Assembly (NCBI GenBank): GCA_030698575.1
Contig: JAUYMQ010000418.1
Location: 1 to 6,466, forward strand
DNA from: Deltaproteobacteria bacterium
GTDB taxonomy: Bacteria; JAUYMQ01
Length of the DNA: 6,466 bases
Direction: 5' to 3'
The position numbers and the translations under genes were made by a program. Positions 1 to 6,466 of the stretch are shown in pieces; the stretch's first letter is position 1; every line of letters starts with the position of its first letter. The notes under the pieces are model-generated. The model was not told where the DNA came from, did not search any database, and worked only from the letters and a program-made list of their open reading frames with translations.

Positions 1-425
1 CCCCTCTCGCCCTTGATCGTCAGCCAGGCACCGCCGGCGCCGTCGGGCTTGACGGTCGCCACGTAATGGACGTTCGCCGCGGGGCGCTCGAAATCGATCT
101 CGCCCGTAAGATCGGTGCTGTACCAGGGCCCTTTGACGACATAGGCAAGCTTCGTCCCCTTGGCCGGCAGCTTGCCGGCTGGAACGCGAAGCTGCGCCTG
201 CCCCGCCACCAGGGGCTCGGCCAGGCCGATCGCCGGGATCTCGAACTGCTTCGCCGCCTCCGTGCCCTCGACGTCGATAATCAGCACGCGATCCGGGCCG
301 CCGCCCTCCATGCGCGCCGAGACATTCGCCGAGGGGCGGGGCAGCAGGAACACCATCGCCGCCCCGGCCGCGAGGGCCAGGAGGATGGCGATCACGCGGG
401 GTGTGCGCGGAGGCTTTCTGAACAT
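1..425 (-). CDS. Membrane-anchored protein of unknown function (3' end beyond window)
   Basis: This reading frame starts at the ATG at 425 and runs open to the left edge of the window, so at least 141 codons are present and the C-terminus is missing. Residues 1-9 are basic (MFRKPPRTP). Residues 10-28 form one hydrophobic helix (VIAILLALAAGAAMVFLLP), suggesting a signal anchor or uncleaved signal peptide. The rest is a soluble, probably periplasmic segment rich in short beta-like stretches (RVLIIDVEG, KLAYVVKGPWYS, VHYVATVKP). I recognise no domain. No strong Shine-Dalgarno sequence precedes the ATG, but a good promoter lies 130-160 bases upstream on the same strand, and no in-frame upstream start looks better. 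The plus-strand frames over this interval are Arg/Ala-rich antisense shadows. Existence as a gene is likely; function is unknown. Confidence 0.7.
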   Translation of the reverse strand, partial: MFRKPPRTPRVIAILLALAAGAAMVFLLPRPSANVSARMEGGGPDRVLIIDVEGTEAAKQFEIPAIGLAEPLVAGQAQLRVPAGKLPAKGTKLAYVVKGPWYSTDLTGEIDFERPAANVHYVATVKPDGAGGAWLTIKGER

Positions 426-556
426 GTACTTGCGTCGACGAATCAGGGGGTTGGGCGCTCGGCAAGCATTTGGTTTTTCAGCGTTCCGCCCGCGCAGTGC
501 CCGAGCATGGCGCAGGGCAGAGGGGATCCCTCAGTTCGGGGCGCGGGTTGGGGGCG

Positions 557-586
557 ATATTAGGGATGAAGGGGCGGGAGAGTCAA
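557..586 (-). promoter_or_regulatory. Sigma70-like promoter for the gene at 425-1
   Basis: Read on the minus strand, TTGACT (586-581) is followed after 18 bases by TAATAT (562-557). The -35 box matches the consensus at 5 of 6 positions and the -10 box at 4 of 6. Transcription would begin near 549, giving a leader of about 124 bases before the ATG at 425. It lies about 90 bases beyond the end of the lipoprotein operon, so the membrane protein gene is probably a separate transcription unit. The prediction rests on sequence match only. Confidence 0.5.
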
Positions 587-673
587 ACGGGTCGGTGAGG
601 CTCGCGCCTTCGTCGGGATCTCCGGGGCGCGGCTCAAGCCATCCTCAATGAGGAAGTCAAAGGCCGCCTGCGA

Positions 674-1081
674 TCATTGATAAACGGCGTCGGTTTTCGC
701 GGGTCCAGCCTCGGGACGGATGTAGTCTCCCTCGACGTAGAGCGTACGAGGCTGGAAGATGACCCCTCCCCCGATGAAGTAGTTCAGCACGCCAGAGATG
801 ATTATGTCGAGAATTGTGAACTGAGTCTTGATCTCCGATATCGTCGTCTCTTTCCCGGTCGTTGGAACCAGCCCCCTCGAGGGTTCCTTCTTCCAAGGGA
901 ACAGGCCCCATACGGCAAATCCGCATATCTTCTTCTTGTCAACGTGGCCCGTCGCCTGGCCTGCTTTCAGCGGCATGTGGTTGTAGTAGACGGTTCCGTC
1001 GAACTCGTGCTTCATGTGAAAGCAACCGCTGACACTCACGATGAGCATGATGCATAGAATTCCACGAAGCCGTTTGTTCAT
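674..1081 (-). CDS. Small lipoprotein, third of a paralogous trio
   Basis: The product has 135 residues. It has a basic N-terminus (MNKRLR), a hydrophobic core (residues 8-17) and a lipobox V-S-G-C with the lipidated Cys at position 20. The residue after Cys is Phe, not Asp, so by the enteric Lol rule it would go to the outer membrane. The mature part shares with the next gene upstream the motifs CFHMKH-x-FDGTVY, GFA-x2-GL-x-P, EP-x-R-x-LV, TQFT and a C-terminal EGDYI-x-P-x2-GPA-x2-DAVY. The gene starts 14 bases after the upstream stop codon. The nearest purine-rich stretch (AGGGGG) overlaps that stop and is rather far from the ATG, so translational coupling is likely. The fold order (an HxK-like start, a central GL motif and a terminal beta-rich motif) loosely recalls Bor/Iss-type surface lipoproteins, but this is weak inference. 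Molecular function is unknown. Confidence 0.82.
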   Translation of the reverse strand: MNKRLRGILCIMLIVSVSGCFHMKHEFDGTVYYNHMPLKAGQATGHVDKKKICGFAVWGLFPWKKEPSRGLVPTTGKETTISEIKTQFTILDIIISGVLNYFIGGGVIFQPRTLYVEGDYIRPEAGPAKTDAVYQ

Positions 1082-1095
1082 TATTTGCTCGCCCC

Positions 1096-1506
1096 CTATT
1101 CGTATACAGCGTCCAGGGGGGCGGGCCCGTATGCGGGATCGATGTAGTCCCCCTCGATTTTGATCGTCCGTGTTTCGTAGATGATGTTACCTAGACCAAA
1201 TGTTGCAAGTGCGATGAAAAATGCCACGAGATGATCCATGGCGGTAAACTGGGTTTCTATTTCCAGATTCGATATTTCACGACCACTTGATGCAACGAGC
1301 GATCGTGTCGGCTCCTGCTCATAGGGGACGAGACCATAAAGCGCGAATCCCATCATTTGCTCTTTGTCCAGGTGTCCCTCTCGTTTGGCATCCGGTATGC
1401 GGTTGAAATAGACCGTCCCATCGAAGCTATGCTTCATGTGGAAGCAGCCACTGGTGGAAATCAGGAAAACAACGGACATTAAAATGGACGATGGTTTCGT
1501 GACCAT
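1096..1506 (-). CDS. Small lipoprotein, second of a paralogous trio
   Basis: I place the start at the ATG at 1506 rather than the in-frame ATG at 1557. The inner one has a clear GAGGAGG four bases upstream and gives a normal lipoprotein signal peptide and a 136-residue product, almost the same length as its neighbour (135). The hydrophobic core spans residues 8-17 and the lipobox is T-S-G-C with Cys at position 21, followed by Phe. It is plainly a paralogue of the gene at 1081-674, with the same CFHMKH, FDGTVY, GH-x-DK, EP-x-R-x-LV, TQFT-x2-D, EGDYI and DAVY blocks in the same order and spacing. A hydrophobic stretch near residues 93-110 (LVAFFIALATFGLGNII) could be buried or membrane-associated. 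The base composition is lower in GC than the enzymes to the right. Function is unknown. Confidence 0.82.
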   Translation of the reverse strand: MVTKPSSILMSVVFLISTSGCFHMKHSFDGTVYFNRIPDAKREGHLDKEQMMGFALYGLVPYEQEPTRSLVASSGREISNLEIETQFTAMDHLVAFFIALATFGLGNIIYETRTIKIEGDYIDPAYGPAPLDAVYE

Positions 1507-1510
1507 GCAG

Positions 1511-1517
1511 CCTCCTC
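1511..1517 (-). promoter_or_regulatory. Ribosome binding site deciding the start at 1506
   Basis: On the minus strand GAGGAGG ends four bases before the ATG at 1506. The in-frame ATG at 1557 has no comparable site and would put 17 extra residues, including acidic ones, before the signal peptide. Confidence 0.7.
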
Positions 1518-1563
1518 GGTAGGCAGCGCCAACTTGAACTTTGTCCGCCTCGCCCATCTAGCT

Positions 1564-1980
1564 CTAGGGCGCCATTCTTTCTCCTTCGGGACCTTGCGGG
1601 GCAACAGATTCGACCGTGTCACCCTGGACCACGTCGCCTTCGATCCAGACCGAATAGGTCCCGACGATGCCGATTAGACCATCAAGGAAGGCGTCCCCTG
1701 TGCTCATGCCGTCCTTGAGTCTGAAATTGACAATTGCCTGATCAGGACGAGCTTCCTCGGCAGCCAGCTTTAGGACGTTCAATGGTTCGCCCGAGCCAGC
1801 CAATCCGAAAAGCCAGAACACCTGGCGGTCGTGCTTCTTGAAGTGCTTAACGATGTGCGGTTTTCCTTCAACTTCTTTCGCATTGGTGATTGTGACGGGG
1901 CCGCTGTACTTGTGCCGGACGGTGTAGCAGCCCGAGCACAGGAGAGCGACGAGAAGAAGCGGAAGAACCATTTTCAACAT
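1564..1980 (-). CDS. Small lipoprotein, first and most diverged of a paralogous trio
   Basis: The ATG at 1980 is preferred over an upstream in-frame TTG at 2025. It gives a compact signal peptide (MLKMVLPLLLVALLCSGC, Cys at 18) and has GGAG nine bases upstream, while the TTG has no ribosome site. The product is 138 residues. It shares with the two downstream lipoproteins the SGC-x3-(R/K)H-x-(Y/F)-x-G-x-V opening, a central hydrophobic GL motif followed by EP (VFWLFGLAGSGEPL), and the closing (W/Y)-x-EGD motif near residue 118, but lacks their GPA-x2-DAVY tail. Its layout (a basic HFKKH, then an aromatic GL segment, then DAFLDGLIGIVGTYSVWIEGD) loosely resembles Bor-like or TRL-like small lipoproteins; I would not name it on that. 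A 57-base gap separates it from the next gene. It is probably the first gene of the operon. Confidence 0.8.
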   Translation of the reverse strand: MLKMVLPLLLVALLCSGCYTVRHKYSGPVTITNAKEVEGKPHIVKHFKKHDRQVFWLFGLAGSGEPLNVLKLAAEEARPDQAIVNFRLKDGMSTGDAFLDGLIGIVGTYSVWIEGDVVQGDTVESVAPQGPEGERMAP

Positions 1981-2025
1981 GGTCTTGCTCTCCACTTTTG
2001 AGTTTTGGATCGCTCGTTTAATCAA

Positions 2026-2454
2026 GAAAAGTTAGGAGAGGAAATCTTGCTGGCTAAGTATCGCAGAATTCAAAAGTTACACAAGAGCGTTGAGTTATTA
2101 TTCCGCTGGTCTTGTAATTCTTAGGCATACCCAACCATGACAATCAGGTTTGTTTTGGAGTCATCACTTGTACAATGATCTTGGTCATTAATCGGGTGGC
2201 AACACATAGCGGGCGCGCCGAGTCATGGGGCGACCCATGTTGGCGAAGACTTGGCACCACGAGCCTGCTGCGCCTTCGGATCGGGCAGGGTCGATTTTAC
2301 ACCACGCTTATTGTCCGCTCGCGCATGACGCCGCCGTTGGGCGGTGCCCGAGCTTTGGGGCGCGATTCCAGCCCGCAGCCGGAACTTCCGATGATCCCTG
2401 CAAGGCCCCGCCGACCCTCGCGCGGCGAAAAGAATTCATCGGAAGGGGAGGCCC
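2026..2454. other. Gene-free region between divergent units
   Basis: This 429-base stretch separates the minus-strand lipoproteins from the plus-strand flavin reductase gene. Its left half (to about 2200) is AT-rich and holds the candidate lipoprotein promoter. It also has a plus-strand TACAAT at 2171-2176 that could be a -10 box without a convincing -35, and a small dyad AATGA-N6-TCATT at 2174-2189. The right half is high in GC. Open frames there (from 2175 and 2225) are short, lack protein-like composition and run out of frame into the flavin reductase gene, so I do not call them. I see no RNA gene or repeat. Confidence 0.6.
2057..2084 (-). promoter_or_regulatory. Candidate promoter of the lipoprotein operon
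   Basis: On the minus strand TTGTGT (2084-2079) is followed after 16 bases by GATACT (2062-2057), with transcription expected near 2049 and a leader of about 70 bases to the ATG at 1980. The boxes match sigma70 consensus only moderately (3 and 4 of 6), but the stretch is AT-rich and correctly placed. Confidence 0.3.
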
Positions 2455-2931
2455 ATGGACGAGAAGGCCAGGCGGCTGCTGCTGCAAAATATTCCCTACG
2501 GCCTCTTCGTCGTGACGGCGCAGGATAAAGGGCAACGCAACGGGCTCACGGTCAACTGGCTCACGCAGGTGAGCTTCCGGCCGCCGCTCGTGGCCATGGC
2601 CATCGCCCGGGCCTGCCAGAACCACCCCCTCATCGCCAAAGCCGGGCGAGTGGCCATCCACTTCCTCCCGAAAACCGGCGAGGCGCTAGCTCAGCGTTTC
2701 GTCGTCCCCACGCGACGCACACCCGACAAATTTTTCGGCGCTGCGGTCAAGGACGACGCCGGCCCCCCGATCCTCGAAGGGGTCGTCGGCGTCCTTGAGG
2801 GAAAGCTCGTCCAGAAAGTGGAGACCATTGGCGATCACGACATCTTTGTGTTCGAGATCGTGGATGCGCGCCTCGACCAGGACGGATCCGTCCTGAAACT
2901 CGCCGACACTCGCATGACCTACGCCGGCTAA
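2455..2931 (+). CDS. Flavin reductase-like, FMN-binding split-barrel protein
   Basis: The 158-residue product fits the flavin reductase-like domain family (PF01613-type). Members bind FMN or FAD and usually reduce free flavin with NAD(P)H to feed a partner monooxygenase. Seen in the sequence are the opening P-x-GLFVVTA (residues 14-22), the flavin-contact block NGLTVNW-x2-QVSF-x-PPLVAMAI (29-50), AIHFL followed by LAQRF in the middle, and the typical closing strand GDHDIFVFEIVDA (126-138). The length is normal for short members. The ATG follows a strong purine-rich ribosome site (GGAAGGGGAGG) three bases upstream. No convincing promoter or partner oxygenase lies directly beside it. The luciferase-like enzyme at 5838 or the diiron protein at 3220 could be partners, but that is inference. 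Some family members only bind flavin or haem, so the reductase activity is probable rather than shown. Confidence 0.88.
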   Translation: MDEKARRLLLQNIPYGLFVVTAQDKGQRNGLTVNWLTQVSFRPPLVAMAIARACQNHPLIAKAGRVAIHFLPKTGEALAQRFVVPTRRTPDKFFGAAVKDDAGPPILEGVVGVLEGKLVQKVETIGDHDIFVFEIVDARLDQDGSVLKLADTRMTYAG

Positions 2932-2967
2932 GCGGTCCCCCACCTGTCTTTGCGATCTCCCCAGTCA

Positions 2968-3068
2968 GCGCATGTCATTGCGAGGAGCGAAGCGACGAAG
3001 CAATCCCCTCCGTATTTGCCGGGAGATTGCTTCGTCGGGCCTCCGGCCCTCCTCGCAATGACATGCGC
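2968..3068. repeat. Palindromic interspersed repeat, copy 1 (four-way-junction type)
   Basis: The outer arms 2968-2986 and 3050-3068 are perfectly complementary (19 bp). The inner arms 2994-3005 and 3025-3036 pair over 12 bp around a 19-base loop. Between outer and inner stems, each side carries its own mini-hairpin: GCGAAGC at 2987-2993 on the left and GGGCC-tcc-GGCCC at 3037-3049 on the right, so the strand can fold into a cross. The left arm from 2971 to 3005 recurs identically, all 35 bases, at 5647-5681. Elements of this look, whose translation gives the peptide HVIARSEATKQS, are scattered through many bacterial genomes. No transposase is present. It starts about 36 bases after the flavin reductase stop codon and may also end its transcript. 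Confidence 0.9.
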
Positions 3069-3140
3069 GGCCCGCGGCCCTCCTCGCAAGGACATGCGGC
3101 GGCTAAGCGGCCCTCCTCGCAATGACATGCGCGGCCCGCG
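3045..3140 (+). repeat. Three tandem copies of the repeat's right end
   Basis: Units at 3045-3075, 3076-3108 and 3109-3140 each begin GGCCCTCCTCGCAA and continue as (T/G)GACATGCG. The first and third agree over 32 bases without a mismatch, while the middle one has a T-to-G change and a different end (GCGGCTAAGC). The first unit is the right end of the complete palindrome, so the other two are extra right ends without a left arm. The stretch CGGCTAAGCGG in the middle unit is also found at the stop codon of the flavin reductase gene (around 2927). Confidence 0.85.
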
Positions 3141-3187
3141 ACCTGCTTGTCGCCGCCGCCCGATGGGGCTAGGATGAGCAGGTCGCG
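3137..3187. promoter_or_regulatory. 11-bp inverted repeat enclosing the promoter (possible operator)
   Basis: CGCGACCTGCT at 3137-3147 and its exact reverse complement AGCAGGTCGCG at 3177-3187 flank the -35 to -10 region with a 29-base gap. The centres are 40 bases apart, close to four helical turns, so a protein bound to both arms would lie on one DNA face. It could also form a stem-loop. No regulator gene is visible in the window. Confidence 0.4.
3147..3175 (+). promoter_or_regulatory. Candidate promoter of the diiron protein gene
   Basis: TTGTCG (3147-3152) and TAGGAT (3170-3175) are 17 bases apart and each match consensus at 4 of 6 positions. Transcription would begin near 3182, about 38 bases before the ATG at 3220. 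The promoter sits inside an 11-bp inverted repeat, and directly abuts the tandem repeat units on its left. Confidence 0.4.
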
Positions 3188-3219
3188 CCCGCGGCCGACG
3201 GGACGCAGAGGAGCAGCCC

Positions 3220-4005
3220 ATGGGACAGAGCTACATTCTCGCGAACTTCGATCTGGTCGAAGGCGAAGAAACGCGCCTCTATGAGATGGCGAAGTCCGAG
3301 CAGTGGAACGCCTCGACCGACATCGACTGGTCGAAGCCTGTCGGCTGGAGCAAGAAGCTCACGAAGGAGACGGCCCTCGCCTACCGGGCCGACGTGATCT
3401 CCCAGTTCTGGTACGGAGAGCAGGGCGCGCTGGCTGTTTGCGCGCAGCTCATCCCGCTCGTGCCCGACATGTCGGCCAAGCTCTACCTCTCGAGCCAGGT
3501 GATCGACGAGGCGCGCCACACCGAGGTCTTTGGCCGCTACCTGAATCTCATCGGCGGGCCGACGCAGCTCAATCCCCACCTCGAACGTCTTCTGCTCAAC
3601 CTGCTCGAGGCGCCCGGCGTCGAAGAGAAGCTCGTGGGAATGCAGGTGCTGGCCGAGGGGCTGGCGCTCGACAGCTTCCACTCGATGATGGACACGACCT
3701 CCGACGCGCTCCTGCGCGACATCCTCGCAAAGGTGAGCCAGGACGAATCCCGACATCTCGGCTTCGGGGTTCTCTACCTGAAGCGCCGCATCGCACAGAC
3801 GACGCCCGAGCGGCGGGCCGAGGTAGAGAAGGCTCTCGCGGGCTACGCGCACCTGATCGCCAAGAGCACGGGCTGGCGCAATCCCAACCTCCCGCCCCCG
3901 CCCGCGCACTGGCAGGTTGAGTCTTCGGGCTCTTCCTTCGCCGAGTATCTCTTGAAGAACCTGCGCGGGAGGCTGAGCCAGATCGGGCTCAAGCTGGCGG
4001 CCTGA
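3220..4005 (+). CDS. Ferritin-like diiron protein, probable oxygenase or oxidase
   Basis: The 261-residue product carries the complete ligand set of the ribonucleotide reductase R2 / bacterial multicomponent monooxygenase type of diiron four-helix bundle: Glu67 (FWYGEQ), Glu97 and His100 (DEARHTE), Glu146 (LAEGLAL), Glu176 and His179 (DESRHLG). The two half-sites have the same 30-residue spacing between their glutamates. Such proteins activate oxygen or, in some lines, make a radical or act as oxidases. The substrate here is unknown. It is shorter than R2 proteins or hydroxylase alpha chains, and no ferredoxin, reductase or coupling protein gene follows it. The ATG has GAGGAG six bases upstream. 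A promoter lies before it and a terminator after it, so it is probably a single-gene unit. Residues 220-245 are Pro-rich and less conserved-looking. I am confident of the fold and metal site, not of the reaction. Confidence 0.87.
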   Translation: MGQSYILANFDLVEGEETRLYEMAKSEQWNASTDIDWSKPVGWSKKLTKETALAYRADVISQFWYGEQGALAVCAQLIPLVPDMSAKLYLSSQVIDEARHTEVFGRYLNLIGGPTQLNPHLERLLLNLLEAPGVEEKLVGMQVLAEGLALDSFHSMMDTTSDALLRDILAKVSQDESRHLGFGVLYLKRRIAQTTPERRAEVEKALAGYAHLIAKSTGWRNPNLPPPPAHWQVESSGSSFAEYLLKNLRGRLSQIGLKLAA

Positions 4006-4047
4006 GGCGGGCCCCGCCGGCGCCCCCTTCAACCGATTTGCAGCACT

Positions 4048-4079
4048 CACCGAGTTGACGGCAACTCGGTGCTTCTTTT
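4048..4079 (+). terminator. Intrinsic terminator after the diiron protein gene
   Basis: CACCGAGTTG (4048-4057) pairs perfectly with CAACTCGGTG (4062-4071) around the loop ACGG and is followed by CTTCTTTTC. It lies 43 bases after the stop codon at 4005. It ends only about 16 bases before the start codon of the SDR gene, so read-through or a promoter inside the preceding gene must supply that gene. Confidence 0.65.
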
Positions 4080-4080
4080 C

Positions 4081-4087
4081 AAGGAGG
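4081..4087 (+). promoter_or_regulatory. Ribosome binding site deciding the start at 4096
   Basis: AAGGAGG lies eight bases before the ATG at 4096. It rules out the in-frame GTG at 4069, which lies within the terminator stem and would add nine residues before the nucleotide-binding strand. A second ATG follows directly at 4099. Confidence 0.8.
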
Positions 4088-4095
4088 ACGATCAG

Positions 4096-5007
4096 ATGAT
4101 GCTTCGTGACAAGGTCGCGCTGGTGACAGGCGCGGGCCGCGGCATCGGCCGGGACATCGCGCTTCTCATGGCGAAGTATGGCGCGAAGGTCGTGGTGAAC
4201 GACCTCGGCGGCAGCGAGAAGGGCGAGGGGCTGGACCAGATGCCCGCCGCGGAAGTCGTGCGCGAGATCGAGAAGGCCGGAGGCGAGGCCGTCGCCAACT
4301 TCGACAGCGTCGCCACCTGGGATGGCGGTAAGGCCATGGTGCAAACGGCGCTCGATCGCTGGGGGAGGATCGACATCGTGGTGAACAACGCCGGCATTCT
4401 TCGCGATCGCATGTTCTGGAAGATGAGCGAGGAGGAGTGGGACGCCGTCATCAACGTGCATCTCAAGGGGCACTTCTGCGTGACGCGGGCCGCGGTCAAC
4501 CACATGAAGGAGCGCGGCTTCGGCCGCGTGATCAACTTCACGAGCACCTCGGGGCTCATCGGAAACATGGGGCAGACGAATTACGGCGCGGCCAAGATGG
4601 CCATCGTGGGGCTCACGCGAAATCTGGCGCTCGAGATGCAGCGCTACGGCGTCACGGTGAACGCGATCTCGCCCTTCGCCTGGACGCGCCTCATCGGCAC
4701 CATCCCGACCGAGACCGACGCCCAGAAGGCCCGCGTCGAGAAGATCAAGCAGATGTCCCCGGCCCACATCGCGCCGCTCGCGGTCTTTCTCGCGAGCGAT
4801 CAGGCGGCCGAGATCACGGGGCAGATCTTCGGCGTGCGGGCCAAGGAGATCATCCTCTTTTCACTCCCGCGGCCGGTGCGGACCATCGGGCGCCTCGAGG
4901 GGTGGACGCCTGAGGATCTGGCCGAGGTGATTCCGGGCGCCTTCGGAAGCTCGTTCTTCCCGTTGAAGGTGAGCGCCCAGGAATTCCCGAACGACCCGCT
5001 GGTCTGA
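4096..5007 (+). CDS. SDR-family dehydrogenase, MFE-2 / 3-hydroxyacyl-CoA dehydrogenase-like
   Basis: The 303-residue product is a classical short-chain dehydrogenase. It has TGAGRGIG for the dinucleotide site (residues 11-18), Asp36 at the end of the second strand (VVVNDLGG), which favours NAD(H) over NADP(H), NNAG at 97-100, and the tetrad Asn120, Ser150, Tyr163 and Lys167 (SGLIGNMGQTNYGAAK). The long VVNDLGG-x-GEG insert with EIEKAGGEAVANFDSV, and the extra C-terminal part with PRPVRTIGRLEGWTPEDLAEV (about 251-280), match the dehydrogenase domain of peroxisomal multifunctional enzyme type 2 and its stand-alone bacterial relatives. The likely reaction is oxidation of a 3-hydroxyacyl-CoA or a hydroxysteroid-like substrate in the cytoplasm. 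The hydratase and sterol-carrier domains of full MFE-2 are absent, as usual in bacteria. The next gene begins six bases after its stop codon, indicating co-transcription. Confidence 0.92.
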   Translation: MMLRDKVALVTGAGRGIGRDIALLMAKYGAKVVVNDLGGSEKGEGLDQMPAAEVVREIEKAGGEAVANFDSVATWDGGKAMVQTALDRWGRIDIVVNNAGILRDRMFWKMSEEEWDAVINVHLKGHFCVTRAAVNHMKERGFGRVINFTSTSGLIGNMGQTNYGAAKMAIVGLTRNLALEMQRYGVTVNAISPFAWTRLIGTIPTETDAQKARVEKIKQMSPAHIAPLAVFLASDQAAEITGQIFGVRAKEIILFSLPRPVRTIGRLEGWTPEDLAEVIPGAFGSSFFPLKVSAQEFPNDPLV

Positions 5008-5013
5008 GGCAGC

Positions 5014-5751
5014 GTGCGCCCACCCGATCCTTCGCAGCCCGTTCTCTATAGCCCGACGCGCCATCTCGCGATCTACCGCTACGTTCTGCCGCTGTTCGCC
5101 GTGATGACGCTGGGCTTCGTCGCCTGGTCGCTGCCGGCCGGTGTGCGCGAAATCCTCGTACCCTACCTCCTGCCGGTTGCCGTGTTCATCGGCGGCCTGC
5201 TGCTGCACGCGCGCAACCTGCGCGCGGGCACAATCACCGAGCCCGGTATCGTCGTCAGCGAAGGCGGCGCGGACTACCTGGTCGAGTGGAACGACATCGA
5301 ATGGGCGACGGAGCTGTGGATGAACCCGCCCACGCTCGTCGTCCGGCTGAAGCCCGGCCTGCCCATCCTTCCGCCCTGGTTTCTTCTGCTCCCGCCCCGT
5401 GAGCGGCGCTACAGCTGGAGCCCGCAGCCCATGTCGCAGTTCGTCGCGCAGAAGACGCGCGAGGCGCGGGCGGAACGCCCGGAGCCGGGGCTGGAGCACG
5501 GCCGCTGGCCGTCGCGCGCGCGGCTCACGCTCAGGGTGACGGGCACCTTCTTCGCGCTGTTCGTGGGCTCGCTCATGCTGGCGACCTGGCTCTACGTTCG
5601 CGAACTGGGCGATGCGCTGCCGATCGATCGCCACGGCGAGCCATTGCATGTCATTGCGAGGAGCGAAGCGACGAAGCAATCTCATGGCAATTGCGAAGGG
5701 GATTGCTTCGTCGGGCCCTGCGGGCCCTCCTCGCAACGACACGCGGCGTAG
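5014..5751 (+). CDS. Three-helix membrane protein with a repeat-derived C-terminus
   Basis: The start is a GTG six bases after the SDR stop, with GAGG overlapping that stop, so translation is probably coupled. Of 245 residues, two hydrophobic helices lie near the N-terminus (about 20-40 and 47-64) and one near the C-terminus (about 176-195). Between them is a soluble part whose strands (GIVVSEGGADYLVEWNDIEWA, then TLVVRLKPG) resemble the small PH-like domains of bacterial membrane proteins, followed by an Arg/Glu-rich linker; this domain idea is weak. From His212 on, the last 34 residues (HVIARSEATKQS...) are translated from the palindromic repeat at 5647-5743, so the original C-terminus has been replaced or extended. 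The last helix is intact, so the protein may still work. The function and any link to the dehydrogenase are unknown. Confidence 0.72.
   Translation: MRPPDPSQPVLYSPTRHLAIYRYVLPLFAVMTLGFVAWSLPAGVREILVPYLLPVAVFIGGLLLHARNLRAGTITEPGIVVSEGGADYLVEWNDIEWATELWMNPPTLVVRLKPGLPILPPWFLLLPPRERRYSWSPQPMSQFVAQKTREARAERPEPGLEHGRWPSRARLTLRVTGTFFALFVGSLMLATWLYVRELGDALPIDRHGEPLHVIARSEATKQSHGNCEGDCFVGPCGPSSQRHAA
5647..5743. repeat. Palindromic interspersed repeat, copy 2, inside a gene's 3' end
   Basis: The left arm (5647-5681) is identical over 35 bases to copy 1. The inner stem 5670-5681 / 5701-5712 pairs perfectly around a 19-base loop of different sequence from copy 1 but the same length. The right-side mini-hairpin is GGGCCC-tgc-GGGCCC (5713-5727), one pair longer than in copy 1. 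The outer right arm (5728-5743) differs from copy 1 at two positions, both T to C, weakening its pairing with the left arm. It supplies the last 34 codons of the membrane protein gene. Confidence 0.9.
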
Positions 5752-5761
5752 GCGCGTGTCG
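5737..5761 (+). other. Stem-loop spanning the stop codon, terminator-like but without T-tract
   Basis: CGACACGCG (5737-5745) pairs perfectly with CGCGTGTCG (5753-5761), with the TAG stop codon in the seven-base loop. The left half belongs to the diverged right end of repeat copy 2. No run of T follows, so rho-independent termination is doubtful. The GTGTC of the right half could instead pair with GACAC at 5766-5770, which overlaps the -35 box of the next promoter. Confidence 0.4.
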
Positions 5762-5763
5762 CG

Positions 5764-5793
5764 TTGACACACGGCCGCGAAAAAACCTAGACT
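5764..5793 (+). promoter_or_regulatory. Sigma70-like promoter of the luciferase-like gene
   Basis: A perfect TTGACA (5764-5769) is followed after 18 bases, including an A6 run, by TAGACT (5788-5793), 4 of 6 to consensus. Transcription would start near 5800 and give a leader of roughly 38 bases to the ATG at 5838. The 18-base spacing is the same as in the promoter at 557-586. Confidence 0.6.
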
Positions 5794-5837
5794 TCCGCCC
5801 GACACTTCCCCCGTTTTCCCCGGCCCGCGAGGTGCGC

Positions 5838-6466
5838 ATGTCACGCTCCGTCCGCTTCTTTGCATCCTTCCACACCGTTCCAAGCTTCGACGAGTGGCGC
5901 GCCATGGCGGTCGACGCCGAGCGCCTCGGCTTCTACGGCATCAGCCGCGACGATCACTTCTGGCCGCCCACGCTCGCGCAACCCGAAGACCCGTGGCCCG
6001 AATGCTTCACGCTGCTCGGGGCGCTCGCGGCGGTCACGTCGAAGGTGCGCATCACGCAGACGGTGACCTGCAACGCCTACCGGCATCCGGGGCTGCTCGC
6101 GAAGATCGTCTCGACGCTCGACTGGATCTCGAACGGGCGGGCCGAGCTTGGGCTCGGCGCGGGCTGGTACCGGCCGGAGTTCGATGCCTACGGCATCGAC
6201 TATCCGAAGCCCAGCGTGCGCATAGCGATGCTTCAGGAGGCGGTGAAGATCGTGAAGAGCCTCTGGACGGAGCCGAAGACGACCTTCGACGGCAAGTACT
6301 ACAAGATAAAAGACGCCTACTGCTATCCGAAGCCGGTCCAGAAGCCGAGGCCCCCCATCGTGATCGGCGGCGGCGGCGAGAAGCTGCTGCGGGTCACGGC
6401 CGAGGAGGCCGACATCGCGAACATCAGCATGATCTTCAGCGCCGGCACGGTTACGCCCGAGGGGGT
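5838..6466 (+). CDS. Luciferase-like (LLM) F420- or flavin-dependent oxidoreductase, 3' end beyond window
   Basis: The first 209 codons of a bacterial-luciferase-family TIM barrel (PF00296-type) are present and the frame is open at the right edge. The protein begins MSRSVRFFASF. It carries the early DDH near residues 38-40, RHPGLLAKIVSTLDWIS (82-98), the hallmark GRAELGLGAGWYRPEFDAYGI (100-120) and the later PPIVIGGGGEKLLR followed by TAEEADI. This pattern is typical of the F420-dependent subgroup of LLM oxidoreductases, but relatives using FMNH2 look alike, so the cofactor is uncertain. Such enzymes perform hydride transfers or monooxygenations on small organic substrates in the cytoplasm. 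GAGG lies five bases before the ATG and a good promoter lies upstream, so it starts a new transcription unit. If FMN-dependent, the flavin reductase at 2455 could supply it; this is inference. Confidence 0.9.
   Translation, partial: MSRSVRFFASFHTVPSFDEWRAMAVDAERLGFYGISRDDHFWPPTLAQPEDPWPECFTLLGALAAVTSKVRITQTVTCNAYRHPGLLAKIVSTLDWISNGRAELGLGAGWYRPEFDAYGIDYPKPSVRIAMLQEAVKIVKSLWTEPKTTFDGKYYKIKDAYCYPKPVQKPRPPIVIGGGGEKLLRVTAEEADIANISMIFSAGTVTPEG

Follow-up and report, generated by a model that had tools for sequence, protein, structure and literature searches.

The window, that is, the whole stretch of 6,466 nt that was analysed (Deltaproteobacteria bacterium, GCA_030698575.1, contig JAUYMQ010000418.1, positions 1–6,466, forward strand), holds two copies of a palindromic repeat, of which copy 1 (2968–3068, + strand, as are all its parts) is complete and is composed of two head-to-head TGTC-tagged REP units. 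Its left outer arm GCGCATGTCATTGCGAGGAG (2968–2987), with the TGTC tag at 2973–2976, is the perfect 20-bp complement of the right outer arm CTCCTCGCAATGACATGCGC (3049–3068), which has a GACA tag at 3060–3063, and its left inner arm CGACGAAGCAATC (2993–3005) pairs without mismatch with the right inner arm GATTGCTTCGTCG (3025–3037). Both stems are thus as perfect as stated in the preliminary description of this DNA, with lengths of 20 and 13 bp instead of the 19 and 12 bp given there. Between the stems lie, as had been noted, the mini-hairpin GCGAAGC on the left (2987–2993) and a GC-rich hairpin, GGGCC-TCC-GGCCC, on the right (3037–3049), both with their outermost bases in common with the stems, and an apical loop (3006–3024) tops the structure. 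Folded as single-stranded DNA, copy 1 gives −45 kcal/mol against −17.1 ± 2.8 for shuffled sequences (z = −10.2). Two partial tandem copies of the right hairpin and arm, with a period of 31–33, follow at 3075–3143 (+ strand), and an Rfam search of the window yielded 0 matches above the gathering score.

Copy 2 (5646–5745, + strand) folds with z = −6.5, has two mismatches in its outer stem (2 of 18) and has as its right hairpin GGGCCC-TGC-GGGCCC, which differs from that of copy 1 with its pairing retained, as reported before. Its central loop had been described as differing fully from that of copy 1. We find instead that the inner stem-loop of copy 2 (5669–5713, − strand) is the reverse complement of 2993–3037 at 40 of 45 bases, against 33 of 45 in the direct comparison, which are mostly palindromic stem, and the loop is thus conserved between the two copies, but inverted. 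The idea of two unrelated loop sequences, now ruled out, arose because both loops had been aligned in one direction. Copy 2 overlaps the 3′ end of ORF 5014–5751 and provides its last ~35 codons (HVIARSEATKQSHGNCEGDCFVGPCGPSSQRHAA), with the stop codon directly after the repeat, which therefore became the C-terminal tail of the predicted protein; the same type of peptide occurs in spurious ORFs over copy 1 (2950–3177 and 2928–3221). Elsewhere in the window, at 674–2025 on the minus strand, three adjacent small lipoprotein-like ORFs, two of them with SGCFHMKH.FDGTVY, resemble diverged tandem duplicates; a Pfam search with these three ORFs gave no match.

Copies in the source genome, a 4.13-Mb metagenome-assembled genome of 653 contigs that has only the domain in common with its listed relatives, were counted by pattern searches and in 37 retrieved stretches, from which about 25 complete copies were sampled. 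With up to one mismatch allowed, the 14-mer CTCGCAATGACATG has 170 matches (reversed control 0) and the unit pattern CATTGCGAGN{3,24}GAAGCAATC has 110 (control 0), and the genome thus has more than the two copies seen in the window. Left hairpins in the sampled copies are GCGAAGC (17), GCGCAGC (5), GCGGAGC, GCGTAGC and one longer form, with variation at the N of the GNA loop, a position at which change is compatible with the known stability of these mini-hairpins. Compensating changes were judged by pair counts on a hairpin alignment together with a list of distinct unit cores. In the 13-nt class of right hairpins, three double changes preserve the pairing and three pairs are broken, with a covariation score matched by 1 of 500 shuffles, and the distinct unit cores in the genome are nearly all hairpins, of varied sequence and length. 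These counts bear out the earlier claim that the lateral hairpins hold their pairing under sequence change. Selection on a folded single strand, as had also been proposed, is consistent with the retained pairing, which is by itself no proof of it, because template-directed quasi-palindrome correction would yield the identical pattern. Over 25 complete copies the apical loop belongs to one sequence family and the inner hairpin is found in both orientations, 14 one way and 11 the other, with 2 of 103 informative pairs inconsistent. When compared with shuffled flanks, no target-site duplication was found among 28 copies of the source genome.

Outer-arm units also occur in tandem, with periods of 27–36 bp, as small arrays beside complete elements, examples being an array on contig C643 (L026 1369–1537; 36-bp period, 4.7 copies) and one around the nuclease cassette on contig C317 (L176 180–470) that is discussed below. 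A few copies (L030 1998–2137, L034 821–960, L045 1999–2137 and L029 14–150) have a lateral hairpin replaced by a long CCCGAGGTCCCGCGCGAAGCGCGGG-type hairpin, apparently a second repeat family sitting in the lateral position. Contigs C564, C309, C2, C14 and C192 start or stop inside or beside the repeat, which therefore probably breaks the assembly, so that the true copy number would be higher.

On sequence grounds, the repeat unit fits the class of CGTC/TGTC-tagged REPs. The tag with a stem starting in AT, TGTCATTGCG, is found in nearly all sampled copies, a few of them with one base altered, and 25 complete head-to-head dimers were analysed, single and tandem arms occurring too. Most unit cores between CATTGCGAG and GAAGCAATC are hairpins of 12–20 nt, outside the 8–9 bp stem and 4–5 nt loop by which the class was defined, and we therefore regard the present repeat as a longer version of the unit as published. 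Of CGTC-tagged REPs, among them Neisseria dRS3 and Rickettsia RPE-4 and RPE-6, Di Nocera et al. (2013) state that they "apparently lack a dedicated transposase" and that no gene for a tyrosine transposase had these repeats at its flanks (PMC3733652). We find the exact 28-base arm of the present repeat in Alphaproteobacteria (Bradyrhizobium, Rhodopseudomonas, Novosphingobium) and Chryseobacterium, and also in metagenome genomes labelled Chloroflexi, Spirochaetaceae, Omnitrophica, Aminicenantes, Patescibacteria and others.

The lead to an enzyme came from three loci of the cross-species list of arms, which run from the arm directly into a reading frame with a GIY-YIG signature. The source genome has two PF01541 matches, one of UvrC size (672 aa) and one of 95 residues at C317:505–789, and the latter gene is flanked by the complete left half (GCATGTCATTGCGAGGAGCGGAGCGACGAAGCAATC) and the complete right half (GATTGCTTCGTCGGGCCTCCGGCCCTCCTCGCAATGACATGCG) of the element and occupies the exact position of the apical loop. 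The preliminary description had advised looking for a Y1 or other transposase gene bordered by the arms; the gene bordered by them here encodes a nuclease. Its view of the palindrome as REP/MITE-like is supported. Three of the 25 short copies have loops with 12–17 nt in common with the 3′ flank of the C317 gene (per-copy p <= 0.002), which suggests gene loss as the origin of at least some of the short copies. In the alignment of the nuclease family, Y8, Y19, G21, R29, H33 and E66 are invariant, the catalytic Tyr, Tyr, Arg, His and Glu being conserved, and for the Chryseobacterium protein an AlphaFold2 model (mean pLDDT 85) has UPF0213 and SLX1 as its nearest PDB folds. Among GIY-YIG enzymes, those of the SLX1 lineage act as Holliday-junction resolvases (PMC9071465), and ANKLE1 incises a cruciform once (PMC10287932). 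The nuclease-binding site suggested earlier has gained a concrete candidate nuclease, one that presumably recognises the palindrome.

The association between nuclease and repeat was surveyed across 290 genomes, for the most part a single one from each family; 111 of them have a homologue of the nuclease. Of the 50 best homologues, from many families, 30 are flanked on either side by outward tags at up to 200 nt; the control ORFs, which come from loci selected for repeats and include overlapping frames, give 58 of 2182 (p = 9e-32). Distant GIY-YIG genes, compared with the same 30 of 50 close homologues, give 0 of 20 (p = 8.5e-7), and the simple both-sided tag motif is absent at 20 of the 50 homologues. 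Upstream, the nearest tag faces outward in 33 of 39 cases (33:6), and downstream in 34 of 38 (34:4). With a whole-arm inverted-repeat score, 25 of 50 homologues lie above the 99th percentile of the controls; this score understates the association, because the two arms bear different lateral hairpins, and the tag-motif test is the better one. Nuclease and repeat co-occur over the 290 genomes, which are phylogenetically non-independent, with p = 6e-9, and 16 of 18 genomes chosen solely by the 28-mer arm, several Bradyrhizobium among the 18, have the nuclease gene (p = 1e-10).

The arms at the nuclease genes go beyond the type seen in the window and include TTGCGAG/GAAGCAATC, TTCCNGCG/CNGGAATC, TTCTGA/GAAGAATC and the alphaproteobacterial GTCATCC or GTCACCC forms. 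Following REKQ/REKR, the sampled proteins differ from one another, with for example KxGSRxKK, KKWxRxWK or KGWxRxKK, and this stretch is a candidate for the residues that recognise the arms. Arm class changes 11 times on the nuclease tree, against 24.3 when shuffled, and since few branches of this tree are well supported, the test is to be read as one of clustering, not of a single origin per class. Matching arms are multi-copy in 14 of 16 genomes whose nuclease has those arms, against 2 of 16 genomes without the gene, and in a second comparison in 11 of 13 against 1 of 16. Arm and nuclease are co-inherited, that is, they travel together, a pattern that is neutral as to which acts on which. In a Neisseria gonorrhoeae record, a dRS3-type repeat (GTCATTCCCGCTCAGGCGGGAATCC) directly follows the nuclease gene. 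In several repeat-rich genomes the small nuclease of the family was not found, only UvrC-sized GIY-YIG genes, and the complete genome G061 has 421 matches of CATTGCGAGN{3,24}GAAGCAATC without a small GIY-YIG gene of the family. It follows that a resident nuclease is unneeded to keep the repeats, or that another agent spreads them; those of G061 were either spread by something else or are fossil, and loss of the autonomous partner is common for MITEs. Rhizobium phages have distant GIY-YIG homologues, with arms absent in the one phage locus examined, and on the Planktothrix agardhii plasmid p1 (L279) a close relative of the nuclease, at 61% identity, has an MmeI-type restriction-modification gene on one side and DISARM drmA on the other.

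Occupied and empty sites were compared between related plasmids, which are not sister clones, and intergenic divergence blurs the exact ends. Azospirillum lipoferum has the nuclease gene with paired repeats on both sides between sufB and sufC, and in A. ramasamyi, A. oryzae and strain B510 the sufB-sufC site is without the gene and without the repeats. In seven Sphingobium plasmids, fnrL and a response regulator flank the cassette; at this point a solo palindrome is found in TomTYG64 (CGTCACCCCGGGTCAAGCCCGGGGTGACG) and TomTYG74, and none in TomTYG72. Cassette and gene-less palindrome are therefore alternative states of one site. The Sinorhizobium site compared in this way holds several nested cassettes, which prevent a clean reading.

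Starting from the shared ends, the position of the gene, its recurrence in many families, the co-inheritance of arm and nuclease, the multi-copy matching arms and the alternative sites, we consider it probable that the repeat is the non-autonomous, MITE-like version, without a gene, of a mobile palindromic element that when complete carries the gene of a ~95-residue GIY-YIG nuclease between the same inverted halves, in place of the apical loop, and that this nuclease would cut and spread. Recognition, cutting, copying and flipping are roles that we infer for the nuclease. The palindrome would extrude as a four-way cross or hairpin, and the nuclease, being related to SLX1 and other cutters of branched DNA, would recognise its own ends, with the lateral hairpins possibly marking the junction for it, and would nick or cut the extruded palindrome. 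The cut ends might then be rejoined, or repaired by copying another copy, by which the ends would spread with or without the gene, and such rejoining or repair could occasionally turn the inner hairpin round.

The main rival to a nuclease-driven element is homing into palindromes that are otherwise spread: a free-standing GIY-YIG homing endonuclease would use REP palindromes as safe, abundant landing sites, cutting a solo palindrome, with repair copying palindrome-gene-palindrome in, and the palindromes themselves would be spread by another agent or by replication errors. GIY-YIG is indeed a known homing-nuclease fold and the family has a weak match to group I intron endonucleases, the solo palindromes of TomTYG64 and TomTYG74 lie exactly where the sister plasmids have the cassette, and repeat-rich genomes without the nuclease gene, such as G061, exist. 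However, two arms, tagged outward and each with its own lateral hairpin, bracket the gene, which does not split one hairpin at random, arm class tracks nuclease lineage, and the Azospirillum relatives are without both cassette and repeats at the site, and we therefore hold homing to be unlikely. A host or selfish cruciform-resolving factor, which would limit palindrome damage and stay near palindromes by selection without moving them, agrees with the resemblance of the fold to SLX1 and other branched-DNA nucleases (PMC10287932, PMC9071465). Yet an enzyme acting in trans needs no outward-facing arms to bracket it, nor, in individual species, a place within an operon like suf, which makes such a factor highly improbable.

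Still less probable is the proposal of the preliminary description, a REP/BIME-type element moved by a Y1 (HUH) transposase (RAYT). The repeats are palindromic, multi-copy, extragenic and form head-to-head dimers, as such an element would, and the source genome has three Y1_Tnp genes (PF01797), but none of these is bordered by the arms, their loci being arm-less, the tag is TGTC/CGTC and not GTAG, and a published survey found no RAYT flanked by CGTC repeats (PMC3733652). The least probable of the alternatives is that structure is kept by mutation and not by selection, with template-switching correction of quasi-palindromes keeping arms and hairpins perfect and flipping the loop, and with the gene association as incidental hitch-hiking. 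Template switching at short inverted repeats produces loop inversion, of which the 14:11 orientations would be an outcome, and the three right hairpins with broken pairs also fit, but copy number, a 28-mer exactly common to many bacterial groups and the nuclease association would all go unexplained.

If the nuclease-driven element is generalised, a GIY-YIG nuclease of branched-DNA type would be the dedicated mobiliser of the whole CGTC-REP superfamily, copying by cutting its own four-way palindrome, and would stand behind many of the most abundant bacterial intergenic repeats, including Neisseria dRS3 and the alphaproteobacterial repeats; we rate the chances of this wider claim as even. In the open-access literature, to which our search was confined and beyond which an unseen report is possible, we found no paper connecting a GIY-YIG nuclease with CGTC-type REP palindromes, and the nuclease is put forward as the first candidate engine for a repeat class reported to have none. 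With a small nuclease gene bracketed by palindromes in many unrelated bacteria and arm class matching nuclease lineage, the question becomes testable at the bench, with a ~95-residue protein and a ~100-bp substrate. If true, a new enzyme class would be added to the short list of those that spread bacterial repeats, and many spurious "hypothetical proteins" (RSEATKQS-type readings of the repeat) would be explained.

Among known systems, the repeat shares with CGTC-tagged REPs the CGTC/TGTC tag, AT at the first stem positions, head-to-head dimers, high copy number, a broad phylogeny and the lack of a Y1 transposase, and differs in that its complete form includes a gene for a GIY-YIG nuclease, that its inner hairpin is longer and variable, and that a four-way architecture and a flipping inner hairpin are described here. 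GTAG REPs and REPINs with RAYT (TnpA-REP) are likewise short paired palindromes that border the gene of a small DNA-processing enzyme, which here is GIY-YIG and not HUH/Y1, with TGTC in place of GTAG as the tag. As in MITEs, gene-less copies have the terminal inverted repeats of a gene-bearing partner in the same genome, the C317 cassette, whereas no target-site duplication is seen and the partner gene encodes a nuclease and not a DDE transposase. GIY-YIG homing endonucleases have the same fold with catalytic Tyr, Arg and Glu, and their cassettes, too, are present or absent at one site, but the present gene is associated with no intron or intein, is bracketed by palindromic arms and has multi-copy gene-less relatives. 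SLX1, ANKLE1, the UvrC N-terminal domain and UPF0213 all have the GIY-YIG fold, and SLX1 and ANKLE1 cut branched DNA; unlike these, the nuclease described here is a stand-alone protein of ~95 aa on a repeat element.
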